A stretch of DNA of 41,983 bases. It comes from an uncultured Alphaproteobacteria bacterium (GTDB lineage: Bacteria; Pseudomonadota; Alphaproteobacteria; HIMB59; GCA-002718135). Below the pieces are notes generated by a model. That model saw only the letters and a program-made list of their open reading frames with translations. It made no database searches and had not been told where the DNA came from. The stretch spans positions 1 to 41,983 of the forward strand of contig CACJGU010000009.1 of NCBI GenBank assembly GCA_902593125.1, written 5' to 3'. Below are positions 6,418 through 33,056 of the stretch, one piece after another (position 1 is the first letter of the stretch; each line of letters begins with the position of its first letter). The translations under genes and the position numbers were made by a program.

Positions 6418-6441
6418 AGAAGATGGTGTATTTATTTGTTT

Positions 6442-7497
6442 ATGAAACTAGGTTTTGGACTTTATAGGAACTCATTAAATACTGATAATTATAAATTTGT
6501 AAATCAAATAGGGGCTACACATGTAGTAGCTCATTTAACTAATTATTTTTCTGGATCTAATCCTGAAATATCATCAGGTGGTGATAATGGTTGGGGTGTT
6601 TGTGATAATGAGCCCATATGGGACATTGAATTTCTAGGTGGCCTTAAAAAAGAGATGGAAGATCATAATTTAGTATTTGAAGCAATTGAGAATTTTAATC
6701 CTTTGCACTGGCATGATATCCTGCTTGATGGTCCAAAAAAAAATGAACAGATTGAGGGTTTAAAACGTTTATTACAAAATATGGGCAAGGTGGGAATTCC
6801 TATTATGGGTTACTGTTTTAGTTTAGCCGGAGTTTGGGGATGGGAAAGAGGTCAATATGCAAGAGGGAAAGCAGAATCTGTAGCATTAATTGAAGGTAGT
6901 AGAGATTTTCAGGAACCAATACCTGATGGTATGATTTGGAATATGCGATATAGAAAAGGTAAGGAAGATAAATTTGTTCCAGAAACAAGTGAAAACGAAG
7001 TTTGGGAAAGGTTAGAATTTTTTCTTAATCAATTAATTCCTGTTGCAGAAGAGAATAATGTATCACTTGCAGCACATCCAAATGACCCTCCACTTGCTGT
7101 AATGAGAAGAACAGGTAGAATTTTAAAAAATCCTAGCGAGTATGATAGACTTATAAATATTAATAATAGTAGTAGTAATAAAATAGAAATGTGTCTTGGG
7201 TCAATACAGGAAATGCAAGAAGATGGTCTAGAAGATTATTTAGATAAATACTCTAAAGATAAACGAATAGGTTATATTCATTTTAGAAATGTTATTGGTA
7301 AAGTTCCAAATTATATTGAAGCATTTGTGGATGACGGAGATATAAATATGGTTAATGTAATTAAAATTTTAAAAAAAAATAATTATGATGGAGTTATTAT
7401 TCCAGACCATACTCCAGCTTTAAACTGTTCAGCACCTTGGCATGCTGGAATGGCTTATGCAGTAGGATATATAAAAGGATTGATTAAAAGTTTATAA
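6442..7497 (+). CDS. uxuA: Mannonate dehydratase (UxuA family)
   Basis: UxuA dehydrates D-mannonate to 2-keto-3-deoxy-D-gluconate in hexuronate breakdown. The 351-residue protein has the TIM-barrel metal site: His212 (in Ala-Ala-His-Pro-Asn-Asp-Pro-Pro), Cys251 (Met-Cys-Leu-Gly), His280 (Ile-His-Phe-Arg-Asn) and Asp322 (Pro-Asp-His-Thr-Pro), all as in characterised UxuA. The ATG at 6442 is preferred over a TTG at 6436. It is divergent from the IclR gene and ends exactly where the SDR gene on the other strand ends. Its product would feed the KDG kinase and KDPG aldolase encoded at 15391-16843. A related acid as substrate cannot be excluded. Confidence 0.88.
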   Translation: MKLGFGLYRNSLNTDNYKFVNQIGATHVVAHLTNYFSGSNPEISSGGDNGWGVCDNEPIWDIEFLGGLKKEMEDHNLVFEAIENFNPLHWHDILLDGPKKNEQIEGLKRLLQNMGKVGIPIMGYCFSLAGVWGWERGQYARGKAESVALIEGSRDFQEPIPDGMIWNMRYRKGKEDKFVPETSENEVWERLEFFLNQLIPVAEENNVSLAAHPNDPPLAVMRRTGRILKNPSEYDRLININNSSSNKIEMCLGSIQEMQEDGLEDYLDKYSKDKRIGYIHFRNVIGKVPNYIEAFVDDGDINMVNVIKILKKNNYDGVIIPDHTPALNCSAPWHAGMAYAVGYIKGLIKSL

Positions 7498-9906: not shown

Positions 9907-10032
9907 GTGAAATATCTTACACTCTTCCTCACACCTTTCAATATATTTGTAGATAAAATGAATATTTATATACAAAAATGATGGAATGAGTGTTGAGAAA
10001 TTATTAGATTTATGTGAAAATAAAATATTTTA

Positions 10033-11082: not shown

Positions 11083-11083
11083 A

Positions 11084-12115: not shown

Positions 12116-12154
12116 TCTAATTTACAAATATAACTATAATTTAATAATAATACA

Positions 12155-12173
12155 AAAATTTCTTAGGAATTTT
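12155..12173. promoter_or_regulatory. Candidate operator dyad upstream of the sugar ABC importer
   Basis: A 19-bp near-perfect dyad, AAAATT-T-CT-T-AG-G-AATTTT, has eight of nine base pairs complementary. It lies in the 163-bp divergent gap between the zinc dehydrogenase and the binding-protein gene. A local regulator gene is absent, so the factor is unknown. The rest of this gap is plain AT-rich sequence with a strong AGGGAGG ribosome-binding site at 12267-12273. Confidence 0.35.
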
Positions 12174-12278
12174 GGATTTTTTTAAATGTGAATGCCTATT
12201 TTATAGATAAAAATTATTGAACCCAAATCAGAACTCTATAGAATATTTGTTAATTTCATTAAAATTAGGGAGGTTATA

Positions 12279-13649: not shown

Positions 13650-13660
13650 TATTTGGTTTT
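13637..13660 (+). terminator. Hairpin overlapping the stop codon of the binding-protein gene
   Basis: AAAACCAAAT (13637-13646) and ATTTGGTTTT (13651-13660) form a perfect 10-bp stem around the loop TAAT, which contains the TAA stop. The right arm ends in a T-run, so partial termination or mRNA stabilisation is plausible. Confidence 0.7.
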
Positions 13661-13663
13661 TAA

Positions 13664-14566: not shown

Positions 14567-15390
14567 TAGGAAGGATCTCAAGAACTGAACTTATATTACG
14601 GGTTTCATTACTTGTAATATTTTTTCTATTTTTTATGTTTCCTATATATTGGATGGTTGTAACTTCTCTAAAAAATACTGTAGATATATTTGCAATTCCA
14701 CCAAAATGGTTTTTTTCAATTTCTTTTGAAAATTACTGGTACATTATGAGTGATGACTCTGGTTTTTTAAAAAAAATATTAAACTCTGCAATAGCTTCAA
14801 CACTTAATGCGTTATTTACATTATTATTAGCATTTCCAGCTGCTTACAGTATGTCTAGATACAAAACTGGTGGTATTAATTTATTGATGTGGTTTTTAAG
14901 TATTCGAATGATACCACCAATTGTTGGCGCAATACCTTTGTTTATAATTTTTTCAAAGTTAGGTTTAGTTGATACATTTATTGCTCTTCCAATTTTATAC
15001 ATAATTATTAATCTTCCATTTGCTATTTGGATGATAAAATCATTTATGGATGAGATACCAAAAGAAATAGATGAAAGTGCTTATGTTGAGGGTTGTTCAA
15101 CAACAGGTGTTATTTTTAAAATAATTGTACCATTAATTAGACCCGGAATTTTTGCCACTTTAGTGTTTTGCTTTATTATGTCATGGAATGAGTTTCTTAT
15201 TGCTTACATTTTTACAAGAAAAGAGGCTATTACAGCGCCAGTTGGTGTAGCAAGGTTTATAACAGAAAGACAAATATTGTGGGGATACATAACAGCTGGT
15301 GCAACTTTAGCTTCTATTTTACCAATGTTATTACTAATAATATTTCAAAAAAATTTAGTTAGAGGACTCACTTTGGGAGCTGTTAAATAA
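14563..15390 (+). CDS. ABC sugar importer permease (MalG/UgpE type)
   Basis: This is the second membrane subunit, 275 residues with about six membrane helices. The EAA loop reads Glu171-Ser-Ala with Gly177 and a downstream Ile-Val-Pro, as in MalG proteins. A Phe-Pro-Ile-Tyr-Trp at about 26-30 after the first helix is typical. It overlaps the upstream permease in ATGA. No ATPase gene follows; instead the KDPG-aldolase gene of the opposite strand ends at the very next base. The MalK-type ATPase encoded at 30166-31260 is the only candidate partner in this window. Confidence 0.92.
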   Translation: MIGRISRTELILRVSLLVIFFLFFMFPIYWMVVTSLKNTVDIFAIPPKWFFSISFENYWYIMSDDSGFLKKILNSAIASTLNALFTLLLAFPAAYSMSRYKTGGINLLMWFLSIRMIPPIVGAIPLFIIFSKLGLVDTFIALPILYIIINLPFAIWMIKSFMDEIPKEIDESAYVEGCSTTGVIFKIIVPLIRPGIFATLVFCFIMSWNEFLIAYIFTRKEAITAPVGVARFITERQILWGYITAGATLASILPMLLLIIFQKNLVRGLTLGAVK

Positions 15391-15942
15391 TTAAAAATTA
15401 GTTGAACCAACAGCAATTACATTATCAAGAGCAAAATAATCATCCATATTTTCACCATTAATGCCTCCTGTGGGTATAAATCTAACATCATTAAAAATTT
15501 CTTCTAAAAATTTTAATGAATTAGCACCTCCATTTTTTTCTGCATGAAAATATTTTAGTAACTTATAATCATGCTCTATTGCAGTTAATATTTCTGATGG
15601 AGTAGAGACACCAGGAATAAATAAAATGTCATTTTTATTTGCAAAATCTAACATTTGCTCGTTAATTCCCGGTGAAATATAAAAATCAAATTTTGATTTA
15701 ACTACTTCTTTAAGCATAGTTAAAGATTGTATTGAGCCAAGTCCAATATTTATATCTGGATTTTGATTTTTTAGCTCAATTGAAGTTTCTAATGCTTCCT
15801 CACTTCTTAATGCAATCTCAATCACGCTATATTTATCTAAGACAAGTCTATTAAATTTATTTTTAATATCAATGGATGTTCCTTTTCCTATGATTGGAAT
15901 TTTTTTCTGATTTTTAATTAATTTTATGATTTCAGATGACAT
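15391..15942 (-). CDS. eda: KDPG/KHG-type 2-keto-3-deoxy-6-phospho-sugar-acid aldolase
   Basis: This class I aldolase cleaves 2-keto-3-deoxy-6-phosphogluconate (or the galactonate epimer) to pyruvate and glyceraldehyde 3-phosphate. The 183-residue protein keeps Glu42 and Arg46 (Ile-Glu-Ile-Ala-Leu-Arg), a Gly-Leu-Gly-Ser phosphate-side loop, Ser90-Pro91, the Schiff-base Lys130 in Leu-Lys-Tyr-Phe, and Pro-Thr-Gly-Gly-Ile at 157-161. The ATG at 15942 is chosen over an upstream TTG at 15996; it overlaps the kinase gene by 11 bp. It is the last gene of the long minus-strand operon and acts directly after the kinase. KDPG versus KDPGal preference cannot be told. Confidence 0.88.
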   Translation of the reverse strand: MSSEIIKLIKNQKKIPIIGKGTSIDIKNKFNRLVLDKYSVIEIALRSEEALETSIELKNQNPDINIGLGSIQSLTMLKEVVKSKFDFYISPGINEQMLDFANKNDILFIPGVSTPSEILTAIEHDYKLLKYFHAEKNGGANSLKFLEEIFNDVRFIPTGGINGENMDDYFALDNVIAVGSTNF

Positions 15943-16843
15943 AAAGTTTAGGATTAAAATTTTGTTTAGGAATAATAGCTCCTTTAAATTTTGCAACAGT
16001 TTTTCCGAGCTCGTGAGAAAATTTTATACAATCTTTAATATTTTTATTGTTGAAGTAATTATAGAGAAAGCAAGCATTAAATGCATCCCCGCATCCTGTT
16101 GTATCTTTAACTTTTTTATTTAAATGCAATTTATAATTTTGAAAATTATCTTTATTATAAACACTTACTTCACCATTACTAGAGCGTAATACAGCAATTT
16201 TTTTATTGTAATTACTTTTAATAATACTTTTATAGTTTCTCAAACCTAAATTATTTAAATCATCTTTTGTCATAAAAATAATATCAGCAATACGGCTAAA
16301 CTTAATTATAGTTTGTAATGCAATTGTTTTACTCTTCCAATTATTTAATCTTACATTGAAATCAAAGTAAATTTTTATATTTTTGTCTTTTAATGACTTT
16401 AAAATTTTATAAAATTTCTCATTACTTTTTTGATCATAAATAGATAATGTAATTCCTGAAAAATAAATTGCATCGTATTTAGAAATTTGTTTAAATAAAA
16501 CTTTAGAATTAACATTCTTAAGTAAAGTTTTAGCAGCAGAATTAGACCTCCAATAAAAAAAATTTCTTTCACCATTTTTGTTATTCTGAATAAGGTATAA
16601 ACCTAGAGTTTTGTTAATATTCATAAAAATATTATGAGTCTTAACTTTTTCATCATTTAAAAATTTTAACATTTTTTTACTAAGAAAATCTTTCCCGGTA
16701 GATGAAATATATGATGATTTTGCCCCTAACCTCGATAAGTAAATTGCAGAATTAGCGGTGTCTCCAGCAAAATTTTGTCTAAAAATGTTATGTTCAATAT
16801 TTGACAGCTCAATCATGCATTCGCCTATCGAACAAATACGCAT
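15932..16843 (-). CDS. kdgK: PfkB-family sugar kinase, probable 2-keto-3-deoxygluconate kinase
   Basis: This enzyme would phosphorylate 2-keto-3-deoxygluconate (or -galactonate) at O6, making the substrate of the aldolase encoded next. The 303-residue ribokinase-type protein has the N-terminal Gly27-Asp-Thr-Ala-Asn substrate region and the C-terminal signature Asp247-Thr-Thr-Gly-Cys-Gly-Asp253, with Asp253 as catalytic base. Pairing with the aldolase by an 11-bp overlap supports the KDG assignment over other PfkB kinases. The protein is unusually Lys/Asn-rich. It starts 5 bp after the SMP-30 gene. Confidence 0.87.
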   Translation of the reverse strand: MRICSIGECMIELSNIEHNIFRQNFAGDTANSAIYLSRLGAKSSYISSTGKDFLSKKMLKFLNDEKVKTHNIFMNINKTLGLYLIQNNKNGERNFFYWRSNSAAKTLLKNVNSKVLFKQISKYDAIYFSGITLSIYDQKSNEKFYKILKSLKDKNIKIYFDFNVRLNNWKSKTIALQTIIKFSRIADIIFMTKDDLNNLGLRNYKSIIKSNYNKKIAVLRSSNGEVSVYNKDNFQNYKLHLNKKVKDTTGCGDAFNACFLYNYFNNKNIKDCIKFSHELGKTVAKFKGAIIPKQNFNPKLYVI

Positions 16844-16848
16844 TAATT

Positions 16849-17688
16849 TTATTTATATAGACTAGAAATATCTATTTCAGTAATATGCCATCTACCTAAA
16901 TTTGCAGTATACATAGTATTTCCATCTTCTGATATTGCAATATTTGTTGGATGCGCCATAGTTGTACAATGTTTATCTTCTATTAAAAGTTTTGTGTTAC
17001 CTTTAGTATCAGCCATATAAATTCTTGAAGGTTCATAACAACTAATGAATAAATTATTATCTTTATCAAATGCTAAACCGTCTGGTACTATAGCAATGTC
17101 TTCAGTAAAAATTTCTTTTTTTCCAAAAGAGCCATCGTCATTAATTGGAAGTCTTGAAACACAGGGGTGAAAAGATTCAACAACATACAAATAATTACCA
17201 TCAGGAGACAAACACATACCATTTGCAAAATTAAATAATTCCTCTGAACAAGGACCACCCTCTCCACTAGTCAAATCAAATTTATAAAGACCAATTCCTT
17301 TTTCATTAAATCCAAAACTATCAGATACATAAATACAATTTCTTTTTTTATCAATTACAGGATAATTTGGAATTTTTGGACCTTTAGCAAATTCTTTGAA
17401 TGTTTTTTTTTCACTATCATATTTAAACAAAGCTGCTTCTTTCATTTCACAGGCAAATACATTTTTATTAATGTCTATTGCTATACCTAAAATAAACCCA
17501 CCACTGCTTGCCAAACATTCCATTTTAGATTTGTCCTTTTCAATTTTCATTATTTCACCATTTTCTGTTCCACAATAAACAAAACCATCATTATCTAAAG
17601 CTACTCCTTCAGGATGTTGTAACCTTGGATTTGAAAATATTCCATCATAATAAACTTTTGCTTTGTTTGAATCTAAAATTGGTTGCAT
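16849..17688 (-). CDS. SMP-30/gluconolactonase-family lactonase
   Basis: This is a six-bladed beta-propeller enzyme that hydrolyses sugar lactones formed by dehydrogenases. The 279-residue protein carries the expected metal-site elements: Glu27 in His-Pro-Glu-Gly, Asn156 in Ala-Asn-Gly, and Asp203 in Val-Pro-Asp-Gly. Repeated Asp-Gly turns mark the blades. A GGAGAG ribosome-binding site precedes the ATG. In the operon it follows the fused CoA-transferase by 15 bp and precedes the kinase by 5 bp. With the SDR and kinase/aldolase pair it fits an oxidative sugar route, though no acid dehydratase gene is in this operon. A strictosidine-synthase-like relative is the main alternative. Confidence 0.85.
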   Translation of the reverse strand: MQPILDSNKAKVYYDGIFSNPRLQHPEGVALDNDGFVYCGTENGEIMKIEKDKSKMECLASSGGFILGIAIDINKNVFACEMKEAALFKYDSEKKTFKEFAKGPKIPNYPVIDKKRNCIYVSDSFGFNEKGIGLYKFDLTSGEGGPCSEELFNFANGMCLSPDGNYLYVVESFHPCVSRLPINDDGSFGKKEIFTEDIAIVPDGLAFDKDNNLFISCYEPSRIYMADTKGNTKLLIEDKHCTTMAHPTNIAISEDGNTMYTANLGRWHITEIDISSLYK

Positions 17689-17703
17689 TAATATCTCTCC
17701 TTT

Positions 17704-19434
17704 TTAATTTAAACTCTTTATAATATTTTTTTCTTGTCCTATGATTTCTTCCAATAATTTTATTCTTTCTTCTCCACTTGTAAACTCTAACTTTCTTATA
17801 TTGAGAGGATCTACTATATTTCTTAATACATTTAACTGACTTGTGGTTGGCATTTTGGTTGTTTTACATCCTTTTTTATATTTTACCTTAAAAGATGTAT
17901 TATTCTGTATCTCTTCTTTTGTAACACCCTTATGAATACTAATAACTTCTAACAATCCAGTTTTTTTATTTTTTTCAAAAATGCATAAATTAGTAAATAT
18001 TTTTACATGCCCTGGTTTCAAACCTGCGCGTAATCTTTCTTTATCTTTAAACAATCCTCTTCCAGCACTAACATAGTCAACTTTTTCTACAAAACTTAAT
18101 TTAGAGTGTTTAGTTACGTATCCAATAAAATGCTGATGAAGATTTGATACATCTGCCATTCCCCCTTGTCCTGGCAATCTTAAAATACCACCACTTTTTT
18201 TCTTTATTTCAATATTATTGACATCTCCGTATTTATCAATTTGAGCTGCTCCTATTACTTCATGTGTAATTTGACCATTTTGGTAATAAATACTGTACGA
18301 GTCATCACCTCCCCAAAAGTTAATACAGGTTTCTCTATCTAAGACTTCACTAAATGACAAAGTCATTGGTCTAAAACTAACATCATGATGTCCATATGTC
18401 ATAGTGGTAAGAATTAATTTTGGGGCATGTAATTTTTTTGCGAGAAAGTATGAAACATTAGCCAACGGTGATACTGCACCAGAGCTACACAAGCTATTGT
18501 CATCATATTCATTTGCAAGTGCAAATGCCATAATTTCATCGCTTGTTACTTTTTCTTTATTTTTACTATTTCTATAATTTTTAGATAAATAATTTTTAAA
18601 ATACTTTGAATTTAATTTATTTGATTTAGTGATAAATTGTCTGTTTTTTTTAAAACTTGTTCCAATCTTAAGTGGTGTTTTTAAAAATGCATTTTTAAGA
18701 TCCTCATAGTCAGTTATGTAATAAGGAACTGACGATGTGGGATAAGCTCCATATGGTACGTGAGCTATTGCTTTAACAAAATTTTTCGAAATTAAACTAC
18801 CTTTTTTTTCACGTGCTAAAACATCTCTAGATACAACCTCGTCAACTGTCACAATTAATTGTTTACTTGCACCAGCCATAATTGTATCTAAAGCACGAGG
18901 TCCAAGAATTTCTATATTTCCATCTTCATCAGCTCTACTTGCATGTAGTAGAAAATTATCAATTTTTAGTGATGGTACAATTGCAAAATTATTTTTTGAA
19001 ATAGGATCTTTGAATTTCTTGCAATAATTTGTTTTGTTAGGTAAATCTGATCCCCATGGATATTGAAATATTTCGGAATCTAGATTTTGTTGTCCAGCAC
19101 GTAAAGCTTTTATTAATCCAAGAGCTGACCAATCTATAACTTCGATTGATTTATTTTCACAAGTTTTTCTAAACAATGGGGCTAGTCCAAAAATATCAAG
19201 ACTTGAGAAACAAATTTGAATTTTTTTAATAGCATTTTTTTGAAGAAAAAGCTCTAGGGCTAAGCCACCTGACCAGCTAATAAATTCTAAATTTTTTGGA
19301 TTTTTTTCTAATAATTTATTTATTAATGAAATTGGTAATCTTGCAAAGTGATGTCCTCCTATTCCAATAGAGGTATTATTCTTAATAAGAGTTGTTAGAG
19401 TATTTAATGATTTAAATTTTGATGAAAGCTTCAT
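17704..19434 (-). CDS. Fused class I CoA-transferase-like protein (GctA+GctB fusion) lacking the catalytic glutamate
   Basis: The 576-residue protein joins an alpha-subunit-like domain (about 1-255) and a beta-subunit-like domain (about 297-530) of the glutaconate-CoA-transferase/IpdAB type. The N-terminal part has Gly-Ile-Gly-Gly-His-His at 24-29 and Leu-Arg-Ala-Gly near 111-114. The C-terminal part has Gly-Ala-Ala-Gln-Ile-Asp near 395-400 and Gly422-Gln-Gly-Gly, a likely oxyanion loop. Where GctB has the thioester-forming Glu of its Glu-Ser-Gly motif, this protein has Thr346-Tyr-Gly. It may therefore be a CoA-dependent hydrolase or ring-opening enzyme, like IpdAB, rather than a transferase. 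Its start overlaps the epimerase-like gene's stop by one base. Confidence 0.78.
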   Translation of the reverse strand: MKLSSKFKSLNTLTTLIKNNTSIGIGGHHFARLPISLINKLLEKNPKNLEFISWSGGLALELFLQKNAIKKIQICFSSLDIFGLAPLFRKTCENKSIEVIDWSALGLIKALRAGQQNLDSEIFQYPWGSDLPNKTNYCKKFKDPISKNNFAIVPSLKIDNFLLHASRADEDGNIEILGPRALDTIMAGASKQLIVTVDEVVSRDVLAREKKGSLISKNFVKAIAHVPYGAYPTSSVPYYITDYEDLKNAFLKTPLKIGTSFKKNRQFITKSNKLNSKYFKNYLSKNYRNSKNKEKVTSDEIMAFALANEYDDNSLCSSGAVSPLANVSYFLAKKLHAPKLILTTMTYGHHDVSFRPMTLSFSEVLDRETCINFWGGDDSYSIYYQNGQITHEVIGAAQIDKYGDVNNIEIKKKSGGILRLPGQGGMADVSNLHQHFIGYVTKHSKLSFVEKVDYVSAGRGLFKDKERLRAGLKPGHVKIFTNLCIFEKNKKTGLLEVISIHKGVTKEEIQNNTSFKVKYKKGCKTTKMPTTSQLNVLRNIVDPLNIRKLEFTSGEERIKLLEEIIGQEKNIIKSLN

Positions 19435-20450
19435 TATAATGCATTTATAGAAAATGAATAATCTGTAACAAGTGGATCATCTTTGTATAATTTTACACTA
19501 GTTGCAACGTTTCTTTTAGATATTGGATTTTCTTTATTTAGAGACACATGTGTTGATAATCCAAAGGCAGAACTTATTGGCTCAAAACCTATTGTTACGT
19601 GATTACTGTTCCAGGGATATTCTACTCTACCTTTATTACTTACCCACATGAGAACTGAAGAAAAATGATGAGGATTCCAAGTAAAATTAAATTTATAATT
19701 TTCTTCAAAATTCTCTAAAGACATATTCCCATCAATGCCACATAATTGAAAAAGATCTTCAAAATTTCCATCAAACGGAGGCTGTGAAAGATCTAGGATG
19801 TTTCCATTATATCCCTCAACACTTTCTAATGTTGAAAATTCTTTTCCGATTGCTCCTAATGTTTTGTCTTTTAAAACTAATCCTGGGTAATTAAGTCCAA
19901 ATTTAAAATTACCTGGTTTAATTTTTATTTTTGACATGTTTTTTGGAATTCGAAGCATAGGATGCAAACCAATAGGTAATTCGCAATCATTTTTTACATG
20001 TATTTGAAGAGTACAAAATATCTTGTTAAGCTGATCATCATTAACCTCAATTGATCTAACTAAATAGTCTACTAAATCATTTTCAGGATATTTGATTTTA
20101 AATTCTAACTTATGAGATTTTTTGTCAACTAATTCCCAATTTTTATTTGAACTATAACCATGAGGTTCATTTACAACATATGGCTTTTCTGAATATGATT
20201 TTACCCAATCTTTTGTTATTTCCTCTACAGGAGAATTAATCCCGAAGGGAACACATGGAAATTCACCCTTGAGATTTTTTAGTATTCCTGGGAGTGAATT
20301 AAACTCATCTGAATCATCATTAAGCCAATCAGGTTCATGCAAAGGCTTAATTTTTTTTCCATTAAAATTAAATATGGGTACCATTTTACAACCTAGTGTA
20401 TCAACTTCAATTTCTCCACCTTTCCAATTAAGTAAAATTTTTTCACTCAT
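19434..20450 (-). CDS. Aldose 1-epimerase-like protein (galactose mutarotase fold)
   Basis: This 338-residue protein is rich in beta strands and has the two conserved points of mutarotase-like enzymes: a His in Ile-Gly-Leu-His-Pro near 181-185 and a Glu in Gly-Phe-Glu-Pro-Ile-Ser near the C-terminal third. It would interconvert anomers of the imported sugar before dehydrogenation. Overall similarity to GalM is weak, so a non-enzymatic or differently specific member of the superfamily is possible. It lies 5 bp after the CaiB/BaiF gene and shares one base with the next gene (TAATG), implying coupled translation. Confidence 0.7.
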   Translation of the reverse strand: MSEKILLNWKGGEIEVDTLGCKMVPIFNFNGKKIKPLHEPDWLNDDSDEFNSLPGILKNLKGEFPCVPFGINSPVEEITKDWVKSYSEKPYVVNEPHGYSSNKNWELVDKKSHKLEFKIKYPENDLVDYLVRSIEVNDDQLNKIFCTLQIHVKNDCELPIGLHPMLRIPKNMSKIKIKPGNFKFGLNYPGLVLKDKTLGAIGKEFSTLESVEGYNGNILDLSQPPFDGNFEDLFQLCGIDGNMSLENFEENYKFNFTWNPHHFSSVLMWVSNKGRVEYPWNSNHVTIGFEPISSAFGLSTHVSLNKENPISKRNVATSVKLYKDDPLVTDYSFSINAL

Positions 20451-20455
20451 TAATC

Positions 20456-21688
20456 TTAACTTTCAACAGTAATGATTTTTTCATCTTCATATTGTTTGAT
20501 TTCATCAATAGAATAACCAAATTCTTTCAATATTTCATAACTATGCTCTCCTACCAATGGAGCTGGTTTAGAAATTTTGGGTGGAGTTTCACTCATTTTT
20601 GCTGCTGGAGAAACTGTATGAACAGTTCCATATTTTTTGTGCGTATAACTAGTAAACATTTTCATGTGTTTGACCTGAGGATCATCTAATACTTCCAGAT
20701 GTTTATAAACAGGAGCGACCCAGGCACCTTTTTCTAATAATGTATTTAGTAAATATTCACTGGTATATTCTTTTGTTCTTTTTTCTATATGATTAAATAT
20801 TTCATCTCTTTTAGTAAATTGAATTTGAGATCCAAAAGCTCCTCTGGGACCATCATCCTTGTAATTTGTAGCAATAGTTTCATCTTCTAGTACTTCCGCT
20901 AGAAGTTCAAGTGTTGCAATTGCAATACTTATGTATTTATCTTTTGTTTTATAAACCCCAAATGGTGCAGCAGTCCCCGGATGGCCAATTCCAGATTTTG
21001 CTCTTTCAAATTCTTGACCCAAATTCAAAACAGCAACAAATTCTTGAAGTTCATGTTGCAAAAGAGCACTCAATAAATCTATTTCAATTTCCTGACCTTC
21101 GCCAGTCCTATCCCTATGATACAATGCAGACAGAATACTAATTACCATATTATAAGATCCTAATTGATCTGCCATTCCTGCTCCTACTGGTACCGGAGGT
21201 CCATCAGCTCTTCCCGTATTATATGTAAGTCCAGACATACCTTGTATTAATAGATCTTGTCCCGGTCTATTTCCATATGGACCAGTTCTTCCATATCCTG
21301 ATCCATTACAATAGATTATTTTTGGATTTATTTTTTTTAAATCTTCAAATCCAAAACCGAGTTTACTCATTACCCCAGGTCTAAAGTTTTGAATTACAAC
21401 ATCGCAGTCTTTTACCATTTTATATAAAATATCTTTACCTTTTGGGCTCTTCATATCTATGGCTAAAGATCTTTTGTTTCTGTTCCATGATAAAAAAGTA
21501 GCAGCTTGTGTTCCTCCAACTTTTTTATTGAAAAAATGCCAACGCCTATAATCATCCCCTACCTCAGCTCTTTCAATTTTATAGATTGTTGCACCATAAT
21601 CCCCTAGAATTTGAGTAGCAAATGGTCCTGCTAAGAGATGACTAAAATCTAGAACTCTTAATCCACTTAATGCTGATTTATCATCCAT
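20456..21688 (-). CDS. CaiB/BaiF class III CoA-transferase
   Basis: This enzyme family moves CoA between carboxylic acids through an aspartyl-anhydride intermediate. The 410-residue protein opens with the standard Gly-Leu-Arg-Val-Leu-Asp-Phe and Leu-Ala-Gly-Pro-Phe motif (9-23), has Asn101-Phe-Arg-Pro-Gly, and the catalytic Asp145 in Pro-Gly-Gln-Asp-Leu. Length is normal for the family. It lies between an SDR (5 bp upstream) and the epimerase-like gene (5 bp downstream) in the ribose-type importer operon. Formyl-CoA, succinyl-CoA or another donor is possible. A CoA-transferase beside sugar-acid genes is uncommon and suggests a CoA-activated intermediate. Confidence 0.92.
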   Translation of the reverse strand: MDDKSALSGLRVLDFSHLLAGPFATQILGDYGATIYKIERAEVGDDYRRWHFFNKKVGGTQAATFLSWNRNKRSLAIDMKSPKGKDILYKMVKDCDVVIQNFRPGVMSKLGFGFEDLKKINPKIIYCNGSGYGRTGPYGNRPGQDLLIQGMSGLTYNTGRADGPPVPVGAGMADQLGSYNMVISILSALYHRDRTGEGQEIEIDLLSALLQHELQEFVAVLNLGQEFERAKSGIGHPGTAAPFGVYKTKDKYISIAIATLELLAEVLEDETIATNYKDDGPRGAFGSQIQFTKRDEIFNHIEKRTKEYTSEYLLNTLLEKGAWVAPVYKHLEVLDDPQVKHMKMFTSYTHKKYGTVHTVSPAAKMSETPPKISKPAPLVGEHSYEILKEFGYSIDEIKQYEDEKIITVES

Positions 21689-21693
21689 AAATA

Positions 21694-22494
21694 TTATTTA
21701 CTTCTTGAGCCTGCTCCTGGTTTCATTCTTGGAGTTATAGTAAGACCTCCATCAACTCTAAAATCTGCACCATTTGTAAATGCACCACCATCAGATGCAA
21801 GAAAGACAGCTGTGGCACCAATTTCTTCTGGTTCACCAATTCTACCAATAGGATGCATACCTAATTGTTCTTCAAATAGTTTTCCAGTCCCATCTTCTGC
21901 AACAACTTGTTTTACCATTTCAGTATTGATAGTTCCTGGAGATATTGAATTAGTTCTTATGTTGTAAGGACCAAACTCAGTAGCGAGTTGTCTTGTCATT
22001 GAAATTATTCCACCCTTAGTTGCAGCATATGCAGCCCAACCTGGTAAAGGTGTGTGAGCTTGAGCAGAAGCTATATTAATGATTGATCCTCCACCTATTT
22101 TTTTAAAAATTGGTATTGAGTGTTTGCATCCATAAAATACACTTGATAAATTTGAACCTATAACTGCGTGCCAATCTTCATCTGACATATCGGTAACTGG
22201 GTAGCCACCAATTGCTCTTGCCGCATTATTTACCACAACATTAAGAGTATTAAATTTTTTTTCCGCAGTCTGGATAACATTCTTTACATCTTCTTCTTTA
22301 GAAACATCAGCTTTAACAAAAGTAACACTTGAGTTGATTTTCTGTAAGTCTGCACAGACTTGTTCACCTAGTTCCTCATTCACATCTGATAAAACAACAT
22401 TAGCACCAGAGTTTACAAAACTAGTTGCTATAGCTTTTCCTATTCCTGACGCTGTTCCAGTAACAACTGCAACTTTATTATTTAAATCAGTCAT
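21694..22494 (-). CDS. SDR dehydrogenase, probable sugar or cyclitol dehydrogenase
   Basis: This 266-residue classical SDR has Thr12-Gly-Thr-Ala-Ser-Gly-Ile-Gly19, Asp37 (NAD preference), Asn89-Asn-Ala-Ala, and catalytic Ser143, Tyr156 and Lys160. It comes 17 bp after the second ribose-type permease gene with a GGAG ribosome-binding site, so it is the first catabolic gene of the operon and the natural candidate for the first oxidation of the imported compound. Relatives oxidise aldoses, inositols and hydroxy acids; which applies here is unknown. Confidence 0.9.
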   Translation of the reverse strand: MTDLNNKVAVVTGTASGIGKAIATSFVNSGANVVLSDVNEELGEQVCADLQKINSSVTFVKADVSKEEDVKNVIQTAEKKFNTLNVVVNNAARAIGGYPVTDMSDEDWHAVIGSNLSSVFYGCKHSIPIFKKIGGGSIINIASAQAHTPLPGWAAYAATKGGIISMTRQLATEFGPYNIRTNSISPGTINTEMVKQVVAEDGTGKLFEEQLGMHPIGRIGEPEEIGATAVFLASDGGAFTNGADFRVDGGLTITPRMKPGAGSRSK

Positions 22495-22511
22495 ATTTTT
22501 CTCCTTTGTTT

Positions 22512-23465
22512 CTATAATGATCTATTTCTTTTTAGTTCATCAAATCCTACAGCAATTATTATAATTACACCATTAACAACTAATTGCCATTGTGTATCAA
22601 TATTAAGTAATCCCAATCCATTAGAAATTACTGATAAAATCAGCACTCCAATTGCAGCCCCAGTCAAAGACCCAATGCCACCCGCAAGACTAACACCCCC
22701 CAAAACCACTGCCGCAACTACTTGGAATTCAAATAGATCTCCTGCAACATGGTTTGCAGATCCAATTCTAGATGCTAAAATTATTGCACTTATTGAGCTC
22801 AAAAAAGAGCAAATAACAAATGCACTTAATTTTAAAAGTTTTATGTTGTAACCTGCTAAGCGAGCAACTTCTTGATTTCCACCTACTGCATATAATTTTC
22901 TTCCATAACTTGTATTTCGCATTACAAATATAAATACTAATAAGATAACTAATCCAATAATTGCTGCATAGGGAATAGTTCCCATGAATTTGCCGTTACC
23001 AATATAAAAAAAGAAATCTGACATTAATTCATCTGGAATAGCTCTCTGACCTGTATAAAGGTACACAGCACCTCTAAGGATAAATAACATACCTAACGTT
23101 ACAATTAGAGAGCTAACTCCAAGATAAACTGAGAAAAATCCATTTATAAGCCCAATTAGGATTCCAAATACTAAACAAAGAATAATACCTAGTGGAACGC
23201 TTCCAGTAATATTCATAGTTTCTATTAATGGTATTGATACAAATGCAAGAAGGGATCCGATTGAAATATCTACCTCTCCTGCAATCAATAAAACTGAAAA
23301 ACCTATTGCTGCGATTAGAATGATAGACATCTGGCCTGAAACATTCATAATATTTCTTAACGTAAAGAAATATTCTGAACTAAAAGAAAAAACTACAAAC
23401 ACAATCAAAAATATTACAAATAATGCTAACTCACCTTTTCTTAGATATCTTAAGATATTATTCAT
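22512..23465 (-). CDS. Ribose/xylose-type ABC importer permease (RbsC/AraH family)
   Basis: This is one of two membrane subunits of a CUT2-type sugar importer. The protein has eight to ten hydrophobic segments and the family's Gly-Glu-Val-Asp-Ile-Ser-Ile-Gly motif. I chose the ATG at 23465 (317 residues), one base after the ATPase stop, because relatives begin with a short charged leader just like the one that follows. An ATG at 23540 would overlap the ATPase gene by 74 bp and add 25 atypical residues. It is followed by the SDR gene after 17 bp. Confidence 0.9.
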   Translation of the reverse strand: MNNILRYLRKGELALFVIFLIVFVVFSFSSEYFFTLRNIMNVSGQMSIILIAAIGFSVLLIAGEVDISIGSLLAFVSIPLIETMNITGSVPLGIILCLVFGILIGLINGFFSVYLGVSSLIVTLGMLFILRGAVYLYTGQRAIPDELMSDFFFYIGNGKFMGTIPYAAIIGLVILLVFIFVMRNTSYGRKLYAVGGNQEVARLAGYNIKLLKLSAFVICSFLSSISAIILASRIGSANHVAGDLFEFQVVAAVVLGGVSLAGGIGSLTGAAIGVLILSVISNGLGLLNIDTQWQLVVNGVIIIIAVGFDELKRNRSL

Positions 23466-23466
23466 T

Positions 23467-24963
23467 TTAACTAACTGATGCCTTAAAAATTTCTTCTTGA
23501 TTAACATTGCCACGATAAAATTCTTTGCTAATTTTTCCATCAGCCATTACTAATATTCTATCACTGAGACTTAAAAGATCGTTCATTTCTGATGTCATCA
23601 GCAATACTGATAAACCTTCTTTTGCGAGATCATTAATTAAACTTAATACTTCTGTTTTTGCTCCTATATCAACTCCCCTAGTTGGCTCATCGAGTATTAT
23701 AATTTTTAACTCTCTTATTAACCATCTACTAACTAAAACTTTCTGTTGATTGCCACCACTTAAGAGAGTAATTAATCTTTCTGAGGAAGGGGTTTTTACT
23801 GAAAACTTTTTTATGTAATCATCAGCAGCATTCTTTTCTCTTTTTTTATTTATAATAAACAAATCTTCAAATATTTTAAGACTTGGAAGACTCATGTTTT
23901 CTCTTAAATTCATATCTTTAACAATACCCTCACCTTTTCTATCCTCAGTAATATAACCAACTCCGTTATTAACCATTGTTGATGTGTTAAAACTTTTATA
24001 GTTATTATTGTTTATTTCTACATACCCTTCAGTAATCTTATCGTATCCAAAAATAGCTTTTGCTAACTCAGTCCTTCCAGCACCCATAAGTCCAAAAAAA
24101 CCTAAAATTTCACCCTCATGTAGATCAAATGAAACATTATTAATTTTATTTTTGGAGCTAATTTGTTTAACTTTCATGACAGTTTTTGCACTTGAAATGT
24201 CAACAGGTCTTTCAAAAGTAGCATTTACAGTTCTTCCGACCATGTCCTTGATTATGGTTTCTTCACTTGATTCAGAAATTAATTTATTTGAAATATGTTG
24301 CCCATCCCTAAGAACTGTTACTTCATCAGCTATTTGAAAAATTTCATCTATTTTGTGAGTTACATATAAAATTGCTATGTTATTTTGTTTTAAATTTTTA
24401 ATGACAGTAAATAGTTTATCGATTTCATTAGGAGTTAAGGAGGAGGTTGGCTCATCCATAATAACTAAAGAAGCATTCTTAAAAACAGCCTTTGCTATTT
24501 CAACCATTTGTTGTTGGGAAATGGATAAATCTGATATTTTTGATTTTGGATTTAAATCAAAACCAATTCTATTAAATAACTCTTCTGTATCCTTATAAAG
24601 TTTGTTCCAATTTATTATACCTAAGTTATTAGTAGGAAAATTATCTAAAAATATGTTCTCAGCAACAGAAAATTCAGAAATCAACGAAATTTCTTGATAA
24701 ACTACTTTTATACCATAATTTAAACTATCATTAGGATTTCTAATATTTAGCTTATTTTCATCAAATGAGATATCACCAGAATCTTTAGAATAAGCTCCTG
24801 CTAAAATTTTGATGAGAGTTGATTTACCTGCACCATTTTCGCCCATAAGTGCGTGAACTTTTCCTGATGCAATTTTCATACTGACATTATCCAATGCTTG
24901 AACACCAGGGAAAGATTTACTCACTGATTCAATTTTTAATTCTTTAAAATTGATATTAATCAC
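23467..24963 (-). CDS. Ribose-type ABC importer ATPase with two nucleotide-binding domains (RbsA family)
   Basis: This is a double ATPase of a CUT2 importer, about 498 residues. In the first half, Walker A is Gly41-Glu-Asn-Gly-Ala-Gly-Lys-Ser-Thr49, the signature Leu-Ser-Ile-Ser-Gln lies at 146-150, and Walker B/Asp-Glu-Pro ends near 173. The second half has a degenerate Walker A (Gly-Leu-Met-Gly-Ala-Gly-Arg-Thr), Leu-Ser-Gly-Gly-Asn and Leu-Asp-Glu-Pro-Thr-Arg-Gly-Val-Asp, the usual asymmetry. I prefer the GTG at 24963: GGAG lies exactly 8 bp upstream and the gene then overlaps the previous permease by 8 bp. An ATG at 24984 is the alternative. Confidence 0.93.
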   Translation of the reverse strand: MININFKELKIESVSKSFPGVQALDNVSMKIASGKVHALMGENGAGKSTLIKILAGAYSKDSGDISFDENKLNIRNPNDSLNYGIKVVYQEISLISEFSVAENIFLDNFPTNNLGIINWNKLYKDTEELFNRIGFDLNPKSKISDLSISQQQMVEIAKAVFKNASLVIMDEPTSSLTPNEIDKLFTVIKNLKQNNIAILYVTHKIDEIFQIADEVTVLRDGQHISNKLISESSEETIIKDMVGRTVNATFERPVDISSAKTVMKVKQISSKNKINNVSFDLHEGEILGFFGLMGAGRTELAKAIFGYDKITEGYVEINNNNYKSFNTSTMVNNGVGYITEDRKGEGIVKDMNLRENMSLPSLKIFEDLFIINKKREKNAADDYIKKFSVKTPSSERLITLLSGGNQQKVLVSRWLIRELKIIILDEPTRGVDIGAKTEVLSLINDLAKEGLSVLLMTSEMNDLLSLSDRILVMADGKISKEFYRGNVNQEEIFKASVS

Positions 24964-25891
24964 TATTTTTTCTCCTAATGCCATCGAAATAGACTGCTAA
25001 TATTAATATAACACCTGGAACAATAAGCTGAAATTCTTGAGGTATTCTCATTAGAATTATTCCATTATCAATAATTTTTAAGATTAATATTCCAAGAATA
25101 GTTCCAATAATCGTTCCTCTCCCACCCATAAAACTTGTTCCACCTAAAAGAACCGCAGCTATTACTATTAACTCAAAACCTTTTGCTGATCCTTGTTGTC
25201 CGGTATCCATTAATGAAGCAAGAATCACACCTGACACTCCAACTAAAAGTGAAGTAATAACAAAACCAATTACTTTGTACCTATTATTATTAATACCAGA
25301 TAATTTAGCAGCATCAGGATTGCTTCCAATTGCAGAAAAGTATCTTCCGTATCTAGTAAAGTTTAACAAAACTACAAAAAAAGGAAGAATGATTAGCATT
25401 ATTACTACAGGCATTGGTATGTTTAAGAAAAAACCTTGTCCAATAAAACTAAACAATGGTATCAAATGTGTATTGTAAATAGCAGCCATTGAATAAACAT
25501 ATACACTTCCCTGAAGTATAAGCATCATTGCTAAGGTTGCTATTAAAGAATTTACATTTAATACAGTTCTTACCAGTCCATTAATTAAACCAATCAAAAG
25601 ACAAAATCCAAAAACTGCTATTAATCCTAAAGCAATACTTCCTGATATATTTATGACATCCATTACTATTACTGTAACAAATGACATTAATGCGCCAACT
25701 GACAAATCTACTTCACCACTAGTTAATAGTATAGTCATTCCAAATGCAACAATCATAACTGTTGAGCTTGAGCGCAGTATACTATGTATATTTTGAATAC
25801 TATAAAATTGTGGATTATAAAAAGATAAGAAAATACAAAGTAGTGCTAATATAAAAAAAAGAATTGATTCATTTGATTGTAGGAATTTCAT
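24956..25891 (-). CDS. Ribose/xylose-type ABC importer permease (RbsC/AraH family)
   Basis: This is the first permease of the operon, 311 residues, with eight to ten hydrophobic segments and Gly-Glu-Val-Asp-Leu-Ser-Val-Gly near residues 60-67. It is a paralog of the permease encoded at 22512-23465; two different permeases flanking one RbsA-type ATPase suggest a heterodimeric channel. The ATG at 25891 follows a hairpin-containing 67-bp gap after the binding-protein gene, and the 3' end overlaps the ATPase start by 8 bp. Confidence 0.92.
   Translation of the reverse strand: MKFLQSNESILFFILALLCIFLSFYNPQFYSIQNIHSILRSSSTVMIVAFGMTILLTSGEVDLSVGALMSFVTVIVMDVINISGSIALGLIAVFGFCLLIGLINGLVRTVLNVNSLIATLAMMLILQGSVYVYSMAAIYNTHLIPLFSFIGQGFFLNIPMPVVIMLIILPFFVVLLNFTRYGRYFSAIGSNPDAAKLSGINNNRYKVIGFVITSLLVGVSGVILASLMDTGQQGSAKGFELIVIAAVLLGGTSFMGGRGTIIGTILGILILKIIDNGIILMRIPQEFQLIVPGVILILAVYFDGIRRKNSD
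24972..24975 (-). promoter_or_regulatory. Ribosome-binding site deciding the GTG start of the RbsA-like gene
   Basis: GGAG on the minus strand sits 8 bp before the GTG at 24963. It lies inside the coding sequence that would result from the upstream ATG at 24984, which has no comparable site, so it favours the GTG start. Confidence 0.55.
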
Positions 25892-25917
25892 TGTAATCTA
25901 CATTTACATTATAACTA

Positions 25918-25942
25918 AGCCTCCCTTAAATAAAAGGAGGCT
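25918..25942 (-). terminator. Hairpin between ribose-type binding-protein gene and first permease gene
   Basis: AGCCTCC (25918-25924) pairs with GGAGGCT (25936-25942), extended by TT/AA past one C-A mismatch, with a 5-nt loop. It lies 16 bp after the binding-protein stop on the minus strand. It probably causes partial termination or stabilises the upstream message. Confidence 0.75.
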
Positions 25943-25958
25943 CAAGTATATTTTAAAA

Positions 25959-26978
25959 TTACAGATCAGAAGAGTACTTTGTACACTTTGATTCTGTTGG
26001 AATTTTAGCTACATTTTCAAAGTTAATAGCTCTTTTTTGTCCAGCTTTATCAAAGTCATAATACTTAGCAAAATTATGAACTGTTAATGCCAAAGTTGGT
26101 GTTACTTTATGCTCTGGAACATCTACACCATTGAATAAATCAACTGCAAGATTCATACCAGTATAACCAACTCCTTCTGGGAACATTGCTGCCTCGACTA
26201 GATACGGAGTTCCTTCTTTAGTCATTTCATTAAGAAAAGCTAAACCTTCAGAACCTGTTCCAGCTACAATAAGATCATCTTCTGGTAATCCAGCAGCTCT
26301 CCAAGCTTGAAGACCTCCTAATGCTGATCCATCATTAATACCATAAATTACATTTATGTTTGAGTCAGCAGCTAGAGCAGCAGAAGCAACTTCTACTGAA
26401 CTATCGATCATACCAGATCCATCAAGCTCATGTACTTTTACTGCATTAACATGTTCTGCAAGAGCTTCCATGAAACCTAAAGATCTTAAGAGAGTTGCAG
26501 ATAATAGAGGCAATCCTACATCCATAACTCTTGCTTCAGTTTCACCTCTTGATACTAAAATTCTTCCAACAGCATCACCAGCTTTGTAACCTGCATCATA
26601 ATCACAAATTGCGAATAAGGTTGTCATACCTTTAGCTGGGTTACCCTCAAGGACAGTTGGCATACCTTCTGCTTTTGCTTTCCTTAAGATTGGCACAACG
26701 CCTTCTTCATTAACTGGAGTCATGATTAAAACATCAACTCCTTTAGTCATAAAGTCCTCTGCTTGTTGAGTTTGTTTATTTATATCTAAATTAGCATCCA
26801 TTACTTCCAACTCAATACCTAATTCATCAGCTCTAGATTGTAATCCAAATATAACGTTTTGATACCACTCGTGTGTACCATAGTTTACAATGTAACCAAT
26901 CCTTTTAGGATCAGCTGAAACTGAAAAAGCTAATGATAATGTTATAACAGCTGCTAAAAACCAACTAACTATTTTCAT
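25959..26978 (-). CDS. Ribose-type ABC importer periplasmic binding protein (Peripla_BP_4 family)
   Basis: This is the sugar receptor of the CUT2 importer, 339 residues. A signal peptide ends at about residue 22 (Phe-Ser-Val-Ser-Ala before Asp-Pro). The mature protein has the RbsB-like pattern, with Asp-Ala-Asn-Leu-Asp-Ile-Asn-Lys-Gln near 60-68, Met-Thr-Pro-Val-Asn near 87-91, and Ile-Asn-Asp-Gly-Ser-Ala near 210. A GGGAGG ribosome-binding site (26985-26990) precedes the ATG. It is the first gene of the long minus-strand operon that continues to 15391. The ligand is a monosaccharide, cyclitol or similar; residues alone do not decide. Confidence 0.92.
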   Translation of the reverse strand: MKIVSWFLAAVITLSLAFSVSADPKRIGYIVNYGTHEWYQNVIFGLQSRADELGIELEVMDANLDINKQTQQAEDFMTKGVDVLIMTPVNEEGVVPILRKAKAEGMPTVLEGNPAKGMTTLFAICDYDAGYKAGDAVGRILVSRGETEARVMDVGLPLLSATLLRSLGFMEALAEHVNAVKVHELDGSGMIDSSVEVASAALAADSNINVIYGINDGSALGGLQAWRAAGLPEDDLIVAGTGSEGLAFLNEMTKEGTPYLVEAAMFPEGVGYTGMNLAVDLFNGVDVPEHKVTPTLALTVHNFAKYYDFDKAGQKRAINFENVAKIPTESKCTKYSSDL

Positions 26979-27073: not shown

Positions 27074-27135
27074 ATTTTTTAGTCAGAACTCTCTTGTTTT
27101 GTATATGTTTTCATGGCAAAATATCATTTAAATTT

Positions 27136-28113
27136 ATGACTTTTTTAGTTACTGGTGGAACTGGCTTTATTGGAAAAAGAGTTGTAGCACAATTACTTAA
27201 AAGAAATATCCAAGTTGTCGCAACAGATATCAATGTAGATGATGAACAAAGTGATTTTGAAAAGTATTTAAATAGTAAAAGTATTTCTTCAAAAGGTTTA
27301 GAGTTGCGTGAACTAGATATGTCATCAAAAGATGATATTAAAAACATTTTTGAAAACTATAAGTTTACCAATATCATTGCATGCGGATATCAAATGAGTA
27401 ATTTGATCGATAGAAATCCAATTAAGGGCTCTGAGGTGAATATTGTAGGAATGACTAATTTATTTCAATCAGTGTTGAATTATAATATTAAAAGAATGGT
27501 TTTTCCAAGTAGCCAAAGTGTTTATGGTACAACCTCAAAATTATTTAATAATCAGCCTGTAAAAGAGGATGATTATTGTGGTCTTCAACATCAATTGTTT
27601 ACTTATGCAGTGATGAAGTTGCTAAATGAATTCATGGCTAAAAAATATATAGATTTACATGGAATAAGTATTGCATGCACTAGACCTTCAGTAGTGTTTG
27701 GTTATGGAAGAAAACGCAGTTCCTTAATGTGGGCTGAGGAATTTGCTACAAACCCAGCATTAGAAAAACCTGCACATCTACCTTTTCCAGAATCAAATAA
27801 AGATAATTATATTTATGTAGAAGATTGTGCAGAACAATTTATTGAATTAAGTTTAAAAGAAAAATTAAATCATTTTGTTTATAATACAGGCTCTGAAACT
27901 GTTTCTGGCACAGAATTAAAAAAAATAATTACTGAATTGATACCGAATGCGGAAGTTACTTTTGATGAAACGGGAAAGCCTACACCTTTTATTGATGATC
28001 AAAATGATCAACGTATTAGAGAGGAATTATCATTTGTTCCTAAAAGTCTTAAAGAAGGGATTAAAGCGCATATGAATGAGGCAAGAATTGCAAATAATTT
28101 CAACCCAATATAA
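27136..28113 (+). CDS. NAD-dependent epimerase/dehydratase (extended SDR)
   Basis: This extended SDR has Thr6-Gly-Gly-Thr-Gly-Phe-Ile-Gly13, Asp26 for NAD, a Ser-Ser-Gln-Ser-Val-Tyr-Gly active-site strand and the catalytic Tyr-x3-Lys in Tyr-Ala-Val-Met-Lys. It is 325 residues from the ATG at 27136; a TTG at 27094 would add a Phe/Cys-rich leader and is unlikely. Members epimerise or oxidise nucleotide sugars, uronates or free sugars. Divergent orientation from the sugar importer and co-transcription (11 bp) with a MetE-like gene do not fix the substrate; a sugar dehydrogenase role is as likely as nucleotide-sugar epimerisation. Confidence 0.87.
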   Translation: MTFLVTGGTGFIGKRVVAQLLKRNIQVVATDINVDDEQSDFEKYLNSKSISSKGLELRELDMSSKDDIKNIFENYKFTNIIACGYQMSNLIDRNPIKGSEVNIVGMTNLFQSVLNYNIKRMVFPSSQSVYGTTSKLFNNQPVKEDDYCGLQHQLFTYAVMKLLNEFMAKKYIDLHGISIACTRPSVVFGYGRKRSSLMWAEEFATNPALEKPAHLPFPESNKDNYIYVEDCAEQFIELSLKEKLNHFVYNTGSETVSGTELKKIITELIPNAEVTFDETGKPTPFIDDQNDQRIREELSFVPKSLKEGIKAHMNEARIANNFNPI

Positions 28114-28124: not shown

Positions 28125-29162
28125 ATGTTAAAAACTACTACTGTTGGAAGTTATCCAAGAAAAGACAAACCCAAAGATACGTTAAGAAAGCCTAGTGTTA
28201 GTGAAGAAGAAGCTTTAGACATGGTTCAATGGGCAGTGGAAGATCAATGTAAAATTGGTTTAGATTTTATAACTGATGGAGAATCATATAGAGAAAATAT
28301 GTACTGGTTTTATCAACTAAGAATAGATGGAGTTGACAGTGAAAATAAAAAATACAAACAATTTACAGTTGGTGGTTCAACAGAAAATGTTGATTTATCC
28401 AAAGCTCACCCTTTAGTAAAAGAAAAAGGAGGATTTGGTATTGAATGTGCAGTTATTAATGATGAGATAAAAAATCAAAGATGGAACCTAGCTTCAAAAT
28501 GGAAAAAGGCTCAAGATACTGCAAAAGATAAAGCTATTGTGAAACAAACAATCACAGGACCTCACATGTTAAGTAGATTTTCAGTCAATGAAAGAAAAGA
28601 TCTTTACAAAAATGATGTGGAAGTAGCTCAAGCCTATGCAAAGTGTATTAAAGATGAGATTGATCAATTGCAAAAGCTAGGTTGTGAGAGAATTCAGTTT
28701 GATGAACCAGTTCTAACTGAGTCTCCAGATGAGTGTACTTGGGCTGCAGATGTAATTAATGATATTGTTGACACTTTTCCAAATATGTATTTTAGTCTTC
28801 ATATATGTGGTGGAAATGCACATAGAAAAAGAGGGTATTTTGGAAAGTATGATGATATGGTTGATGGTTTAAAAAAACTTAAAGTGCATGAACTGCACTT
28901 AGAGCATTGCACGCTTCATTATAACATGCTTGATGTTTTTGAAAAATATGATTTTAAGGGCAATCTCTCATTTGGAGTAATTGATCAAAGAACAGACGAG
29001 TTAGAAAGTGTAGAAGAAGTACACAAAAGGATTAAACCTGTTTTAGAAAAGTTTGGATCTGATAGAGTAATTTTATCCAGTGAATGTGGCTTTGGTCATG
29101 TTCCACTAGAAATTACAAGAGCAAAATTATCAAGATTAGTTGAGGCTGCAAAAAAATACTAA
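28125..29162 (+). CDS. Stand-alone MetE-type catalytic domain (cobalamin-independent methyltransferase family)
   Basis: This 345-residue protein corresponds to the C-terminal, zinc-binding half of cobalamin-independent methionine synthase. The zinc ligands His226, Cys228, Glu260 and Cys321 are all present, along with Asp193-Glu-Pro and the N-terminal Val-Gly-Ser-Tyr-Pro. Full MetE is about 750 residues, so the N-terminal half is missing, as in the short archaeal and bacterial MetE-like proteins. It could methylate homocysteine with a different donor or act on another thiol. AAGGAAA upstream serves as ribosome-binding site. Its stop abuts the convergent zinc dehydrogenase gene in TAATTA. Confidence 0.85.
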   Translation: MLKTTTVGSYPRKDKPKDTLRKPSVSEEEALDMVQWAVEDQCKIGLDFITDGESYRENMYWFYQLRIDGVDSENKKYKQFTVGGSTENVDLSKAHPLVKEKGGFGIECAVINDEIKNQRWNLASKWKKAQDTAKDKAIVKQTITGPHMLSRFSVNERKDLYKNDVEVAQAYAKCIKDEIDQLQKLGCERIQFDEPVLTESPDECTWAADVINDIVDTFPNMYFSLHICGGNAHRKRGYFGKYDDMVDGLKKLKVHELHLEHCTLHYNMLDVFEKYDFKGNLSFGVIDQRTDELESVEEVHKRIKPVLEKFGSDRVILSSECGFGHVPLEITRAKLSRLVEAAKKY

Positions 29163-30158: not shown

Positions 30159-30165
30159 AAAAATT

Positions 30166-33001: not shown

Positions 33002-33015
33002 ATTGGTAAGTTATA

Positions 33016-33041: not shown

Positions 33042-33056
33042 ACATTAATTTATTTA

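Follow-up and report, generated by a model that had tools for sequence, protein, structure and literature searches.

Catabolism of a sugar acid through coenzyme A (CoA) thioesters has a precedent in deoxyribonate catabolism by Klebsiella michiganensis, for which CoA-bound intermediates were proposed with genetic evidence and whose gene cluster encodes a CoA synthetase, a dehydrogenase, a thiolase, and a CoA-transferase beside a lactonase (PMC6365646). The fold of class I CoA-transferases has been put to other uses: IpdAB lacks the transferase glutamate, showed no transferase activity, and acts as a hydrolase (PMC5380842), and the decarboxylase AibAB carries a cysteine at the position of this glutamate (PMC7756340). 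Here, we describe an operon of 11 genes in a 41,983-nucleotide stretch of DNA (contig CACJGU010000009.1; referred to as the window) from an uncultured alphaproteobacterium, whose assembly (GCA_902593125.1) is 1.26 Mb in size, with 30% GC, and 69% complete. This rare operon, in which a sugar importer and sugar acid enzymes are encoded together with a CaiB-type CoA-transferase and a fused protein of the class I fold, suggests that a sugar acid is processed in CoA-bound form by an as yet undescribed route.

The 11 open reading frames (ORFs) run on the minus strand from position 26978 to 15391, with functions assigned from the ORF list and family profile searches. The functions proposed for all 11 in an earlier note on this DNA were matched by these assignments, which are as follows.

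25959..26978, minus strand: periplasmic sugar-binding protein of the ribose (CUT2) type (PF13407, E value of 9e-32; nearest solved chains are sugar- or ribose-binding proteins, E value of 3e-18)
24956..25891, minus strand: CUT2 permease 1 (orthologs at 84 to 95% identity in four conserved loci)
23467..24984, minus strand: CUT2 double ATPase, RbsA/AraG-like (NF008030 RbsA, 564 bits, under its cutoff)
22512..23465, minus strand: CUT2 permease 2 (PF02653, 5e-37; ORF start of 23540 corrected against relatives)
21694..22494, minus strand: classical short-chain dehydrogenase/reductase (SDR), glucose-1-dehydrogenase-like; proposed sugar or sugar acid dehydrogenase (PF13561, 1e-67)
20456..21688, minus strand: family III CoA-transferase CaiB/BaiF with catalytic aspartate at approximately D173
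19434..20450, minus strand: 338-amino-acid protein, distantly aldose-1-epimerase-like; proposed mutarotase
17704..19434, minus strand: 576-amino-acid fused protein of the class I CoA-transferase fold
16849..17688, minus strand: SMP-30/gluconolactonase-like beta-propeller lactonase (PF08450, 2e-18)
15932..16843, minus strand: PfkB kinase, 2-keto-3-deoxygluconate (KDG) kinase-like (NF052444 is the best family at 229 bits, below its cutoff of 400)
15391..15942, minus strand: 2-keto-3-deoxy-6-phosphogluconate (KDPG)/2-keto-4-hydroxyglutarate aldolase (PF01081, 2e-39; ORF start of 15996 corrected against relatives)

The SDR exceeded the cutoff of NF005559, glucose 1-dehydrogenase (234 versus 215 bits), and solved glucose dehydrogenases were among its best matches. 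The earlier note gave the spacing as mostly 1 to 17 bp or overlaps; the genes are 5 to 17 bp apart or overlap, apart from a gap of 67 bp between the genes for the binding protein and permease 1. Two overlaps are long (74 and 65 bp) and look like the choice of an upstream start codon, since the starts conserved in relatives, which place permease 2 at approximately 23465 and the aldolase at approximately 15942, shrink them.

All 11 genes were found in identical order in four other genomes (L006, L007, L008, and L004/L005), with 58 to 97% identity per protein, and a truncated piece of the operon was present in a fifth (L010). Relatives from the same order include a 1.4-Mb genome in a single contig, and Alphaproteobacteria or Pelagibacteraceae are the labels of the carriers in public records. 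As the DNA beyond the aldolase gene differs among copies, the unit ends at this gene. The operon is thus real, more than a chance arrangement, and one inherited unit, bearing out what the earlier note had concluded from gene spacing; the CoA genes, whose loss from most otherwise conserved copies would have spoken against a shared pathway, were missing from none within the clade, and each conserved copy has them in among the sugar genes. The operon is accessory within the genus, the fused gene and the lactonase being detected in the same 2 of 37 genus genomes (55 to 89% complete).

CaiB matched PF02515 over its full length (E value of 5e-102; 366 of 366 positions) and retains the catalytic aspartate when aligned with succinate-hydroxymethylglutarate CoA-transferase, and it is therefore probably an active enzyme. 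Among curated or solved proteins, those closest to it use dicarboxylates, oxalate, or formyl-CoA, but with scores far below any equivalog cutoff, so that no particular acid is predicted for it. A search of 72,556 plasmid records with the lactonase returned exactly three at an E value of 1e-30 or below, from Shinella sp. HZN7, Sinorhizobium chiapasense, and S. mexicanum, and the same three records held the best CaiB matches (approximately 50% identity), with the lactonase (45%) and CaiB genes approximately 1 kb apart. In a phylogenetic tree, the window CaiB joined the Shinella/Sinorhizobium CaiB proteins (support of 100/99), apart from the generic CaiB proteins of the class. CaiB is thus tied to an orthologous lactonase in independent clusters, although two of the three plasmids come from congeners with near-identical clusters and so represent one or two independent cases.

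These Shinella/Sinorhizobium clusters (L096 to L098) are complete clusters for sugar transport. They encode a CUT1 importer, an enoyl-CoA hydratase in which the two conserved glutamates are retained, an SDR, a distant epimerase-like protein, CaiB, the lactonase, and a cytosolic binding-protein homolog; neither the fused protein nor a UxuA-type dehydratase was found in them. They therefore resemble the window operon in their orthologous CaiB and lactonase, homologous SDR, distant epimerase-like protein, and sugar ATP-binding cassette (ABC) importer, but the importer is of the CUT1 type, and the hydratase and binding-protein homolog stand in place of the fused protein, kinase, and aldolase. The binding-protein homolog (PF13416; L096:13824-14969), encoded between the lactonase and CaiB genes, starts without an obvious signal peptide and could act as an enzyme or a sensor in the cytosol.

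The fused protein consists of an alpha part (residues approximately 1 to 262) and a beta part (approximately 297 to 551), which match their counterparts in glutaconate CoA-transferase (GCT), IpdAB, and AibAB. PF01144 matched in two stretches, one in each half, above its cutoff (E value of 5e-25), and the protein matched AibA (5e-14), IpdB (1e-13), and both chains of GCT (3e-11) in the PDB. The catalytic glutamate of class I enzymes (GCT Glu54-beta) is not present, nor does any acidic residue occupy its position; the T343-M345/Thr346 region takes its place, and the motif LTTMTYGHHD is invariant in the five copies. In most relatives from the class, this glutamate is kept within a YESG/FEGG motif. 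With it gone, the fused protein is probably not a transferase, which fits the non-transferase chemistry put forward in the earlier note. No orthologous fused form was seen elsewhere; the relatives from the class that were examined have separate alpha and beta genes. In an unrelated genome, CaiB, an enoyl-CoA hydratase, and a glutamate-less class I CoA-transferase-like pair are encoded in one gene run (L061:7449-10897) in which no sugar genes were seen; the operon is therefore not the only place where CaiB and such a protein come together.

A profile search of the 11 proteins identified no aldonate dehydratase. A candidate for this step is encoded elsewhere in the window:

6436..7497, plus strand: UxuA-type dehydratase (PF03786, 2e-50)

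Within the genus, orthologs of this gene (84 to 93% identity) were confined to the two genomes that carry the operon, with none in the other 35 (Fisher P value of 0.0015, uncorrected for relatedness or genome incompleteness). Three of the four further carriers, which were chosen for having the fused gene and so are not an independent sample for this co-occurrence, also had an ortholog, once on a contig other than that of the operon and once directly beside the aldolase gene. The UxuA-type gene probably supplies the dehydratase of the operon. Of the KDG route proposed in the earlier note, the operon has the lactonase, kinase, and aldolase families, with a dehydratase encoded only outside it; the note did not connect this gene with the operon. 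A MaoC gene (4461-4910) was considered as the specific missing hydratase of the operon and rejected, as 16 other genus genomes have orthologs and almost all of these genomes lack the operon; the orthologs usually adjoin a second MaoC paralog (approximately 40% identity) on the opposite strand.

No Pfam match was obtained for the 338-amino-acid protein even at an E value of 5; a plasmid homolog at 27% identity is annotated as galactose mutarotase, and homologs at 34 to 37% are encoded in Ensifer sugar clusters. Clusters of this kind in Ensifer, Sinorhizobium, and Rhizobium encode a CUT2 importer, an SDR, UxuA (53%), a lactonase, an epimerase-like protein, a fumarylacetoacetate hydrolase (FAH)-type hydrolase, and a second SDR, with no CoA genes in the three examined (L022 to L024). 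The window system shares with them the importer, SDR, lactonase, UxuA-type dehydratase, and epimerase-like protein, but they appear to follow a non-phosphorylative FAH-type route of the kind described previously (PMC6336799), whereas the window operon ends in a KDG kinase and a KDPG aldolase. It looks as if a lactonase-CaiB module and a module of UxuA and the 338-amino-acid protein were combined in the window system, with the kinase and aldolase as the exit.

Our preferred reading, to which we assign a probability of roughly 0.45, is that one imported sugar is degraded via a lactone and KDG/KDPG, that CaiB attaches CoA to one of the pathway acids, and that the resulting thioester is the substrate of the fused protein. 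What the sequences show is the set of genes with its conservation and co-occurrence, the pairing of lactonase and CaiB elsewhere, and the absence of the transferase glutamate; from here on we infer the order of the reactions, which acid is joined to CoA, what the fused protein catalyzes, and the identity of the sugar. The CUT2 importer would take up one monosaccharide or a close derivative; nothing points to the cyclitol or acyl-sugar suggested in the earlier note. The 338-amino-acid protein would equilibrate the anomers, the SDR would oxidize the sugar, and the lactonase would open the lactone to a sugar acid, which the UxuA-type enzyme encoded elsewhere would convert to a 2-keto-3-deoxy acid. 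Phosphorylation by the PfkB kinase would then allow the aldolase to split the product into pyruvate and a triose phosphate. CaiB would use its aspartate to load CoA onto one of the acids formed along the way. The fused protein may work on this thioester as a C-C bond hydrolase or lyase or as a decarboxylase, as do its relatives IpdAB and AibAB. A narrower proposal, that a lactone-derived acid activated by CaiB undergoes C-C cleavage or another thioester reaction at a new active site of the fused protein, which would be a third non-transferase chemistry in the fold beside those of IpdAB and AibAB, is doubtful.

Several observations weigh against this reading. The UxuA-type gene lies outside the operon, and no ortholog was detected in the incomplete genome of L010. 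The families of an Entner-Doudoroff-like KDG/KDPG route are present, with kinase and aldolase scores below curated equivalog cutoffs, and UxuA, kinase, and aldolase already make up a complete KDG route, which does not by itself call for CoA. The equivalent of IpdA Glu105-alpha, located via the glutamate-to-alanine difference between 6coj and 6co6 and which we take to be the catalytic residue, is absent from the fused protein, where Ala104 is aligned, and the equivalent of AibB Cys56-beta is likewise absent, with no cysteine in the aligned stretch L340-H350, although alignment at below 30% identity may misplace single residues. With both residues gone, no known chemistry can be assigned to the fused protein from its residues, and the ring opening ascribed to it in the earlier note is not supported. 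AlphaFold gave no usable model from the shallow alignments (pLDDT of 32 for the fused protein and 38 for the 338-amino-acid protein).

In carnitine metabolism, CaiB exchanges CoA and the crotonase CaiD dehydrates the CoA ester. By analogy, CaiB of the operon might swap CoA between product and substrate so that an aldonate, bound to CoA as a thioester, loses water to give a 2-keto-3-deoxy acid, with the fused protein either releasing or recycling CoA or itself catalyzing the dehydration. Such a scheme would account for an operon without its own dehydratase, and it is in line with the Shinella/Sinorhizobium CaiB, which stands with a hydratase with both glutamates intact and without UxuA, and with haloarchaeal relatives that pair CaiB with MaoC-type hydratases. 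We nevertheless consider it unlikely, as a UxuA-type dehydratase co-occurs with the operon, the operon has no hydratase either, and the nearby MaoC gene is found in many genus genomes that lack the operon; moreover, CaiB-hydratase pairs are common in the class, including outside sugar contexts, so that a hydratase beside CaiB is in itself weak evidence.

The CoA pair might instead handle an unrelated or side acid, such as a hydroxy acid set free along with the sugar, and merely be cotranscribed with a plain Entner-Doudoroff-like route. This would fit the Ensifer/Rhizobium clusters, in which no CoA genes accompany the homologous epimerase-like gene, UxuA, lactonase, and SDR and the route goes via the FAH hydrolase and second SDR, but the tie of CaiB to an orthologous lactonase in independent clusters and the interleaving of CoA and sugar genes in every conserved copy make this improbable. 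Even less probable is an ordinary class I CoA-transferase function for the fused protein, by which CoA would be returned from a product thioester, for example glyceryl-CoA, to succinate or acetate: its PF01144 match is above the cutoff, and the deoxyribonate cluster has a CoA-transferase to which glyceryl-CoA was assigned as a proposed substrate (PMC6365646), but the class I catalytic glutamate is absent from all five copies.

The deoxyribonate route, with its lactonase and CoA-transferase (PMC6365646), makes the claim of the earlier note that the CoA enzymes belong to no known pathway of this kind too strong. Both systems have a lactonase and a CoA-transferase in the cluster and would process a sugar acid as CoA thioesters, which for the window operon is our proposal, but CoA synthetase, thiolase, and glycerate kinase characterize the former, whereas CaiB, the fused class I-fold protein, KDG kinase, and KDPG aldolase characterize the latter; a profile search of the operon found no thiolase or BKACE and no glycerate kinase. 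Similarly, the fused protein shares with IpdAB (COCHEA-CoA hydrolase) and AibAB (3-methylglutaconyl-CoA decarboxylase) a class I fold without the transferase glutamate, but these consist of two separate subunits, keep Glu105-alpha or Cys56-beta, of which the fused protein has neither, and belong to steroid or isovalerate contexts. Neither aldonyl-CoA or CaiB-lactonase sugar clusters, including L096 to L098, nor the gene set of the operon and its fused glutamate-less protein were found in the open-license papers searched, which is weak evidence of absence.

Other clusters with CaiB were observed. In rhizobia, Streptomyces, and Croceibacterium (L100 and L103 to L106), a gene of the aldose-1-epimerase family (DUF4432 in L106, where this was tested), an SDR, CaiB, and an enoyl-CoA hydratase are encoded side by side in sugar clusters, often with a binding-protein homolog between CaiB and the hydratase, and the CaiB proteins of L100, L103, L104, and L106 form one clade (100/100). 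These clusters look like a wider CoA-linked sugar route. On haloarchaeal plasmids (L099, L101, and L102), a clade of CaiB (100/99) is paired with a MaoC or enoyl-CoA hydratase near sugar transporters, a lactonase, glycerate kinase, or GH88.

Within the window, two genes ahead of and divergent from the operon occupy the same place in all four conserved loci:

27094..28113, plus strand: NAD-dependent epimerase/dehydratase-family gene (PF01370, 3e-28)
28125..29162, plus strand: MetE-core protein adjoining the epimerase-family gene (PF01717, 3e-30; NF003317, 194 bits, below its cutoff of 406)

Further sugar clusters surround the operon (positions 1 to 15390 and 29163 to 41983), including two SBP_bac_1-type ABC importers, Gfo/Idh/MocA and idonate-dehydrogenase-like genes, a tripartite ATP-independent periplasmic (TRAP) transporter, and an enolase-superfamily gene.

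The AEGEAN-169/HIMB59 group, the probable host group, has a wider sugar range than SAR11, and its sugar routes are only partly worked out (PMC10308909). If the CoA step is real, it would represent a further branch of oxidative sugar catabolism via CoA thioesters, in uncultured ocean bacteria and, in a related form, in rhizobia. The class I fold, for which shifts from CoA transfer to hydrolysis and to decarboxylation are already established, would then gain an unassigned active site with the fused protein, and the pathway would name a sugar used by AEGEAN-169/HIMB59.

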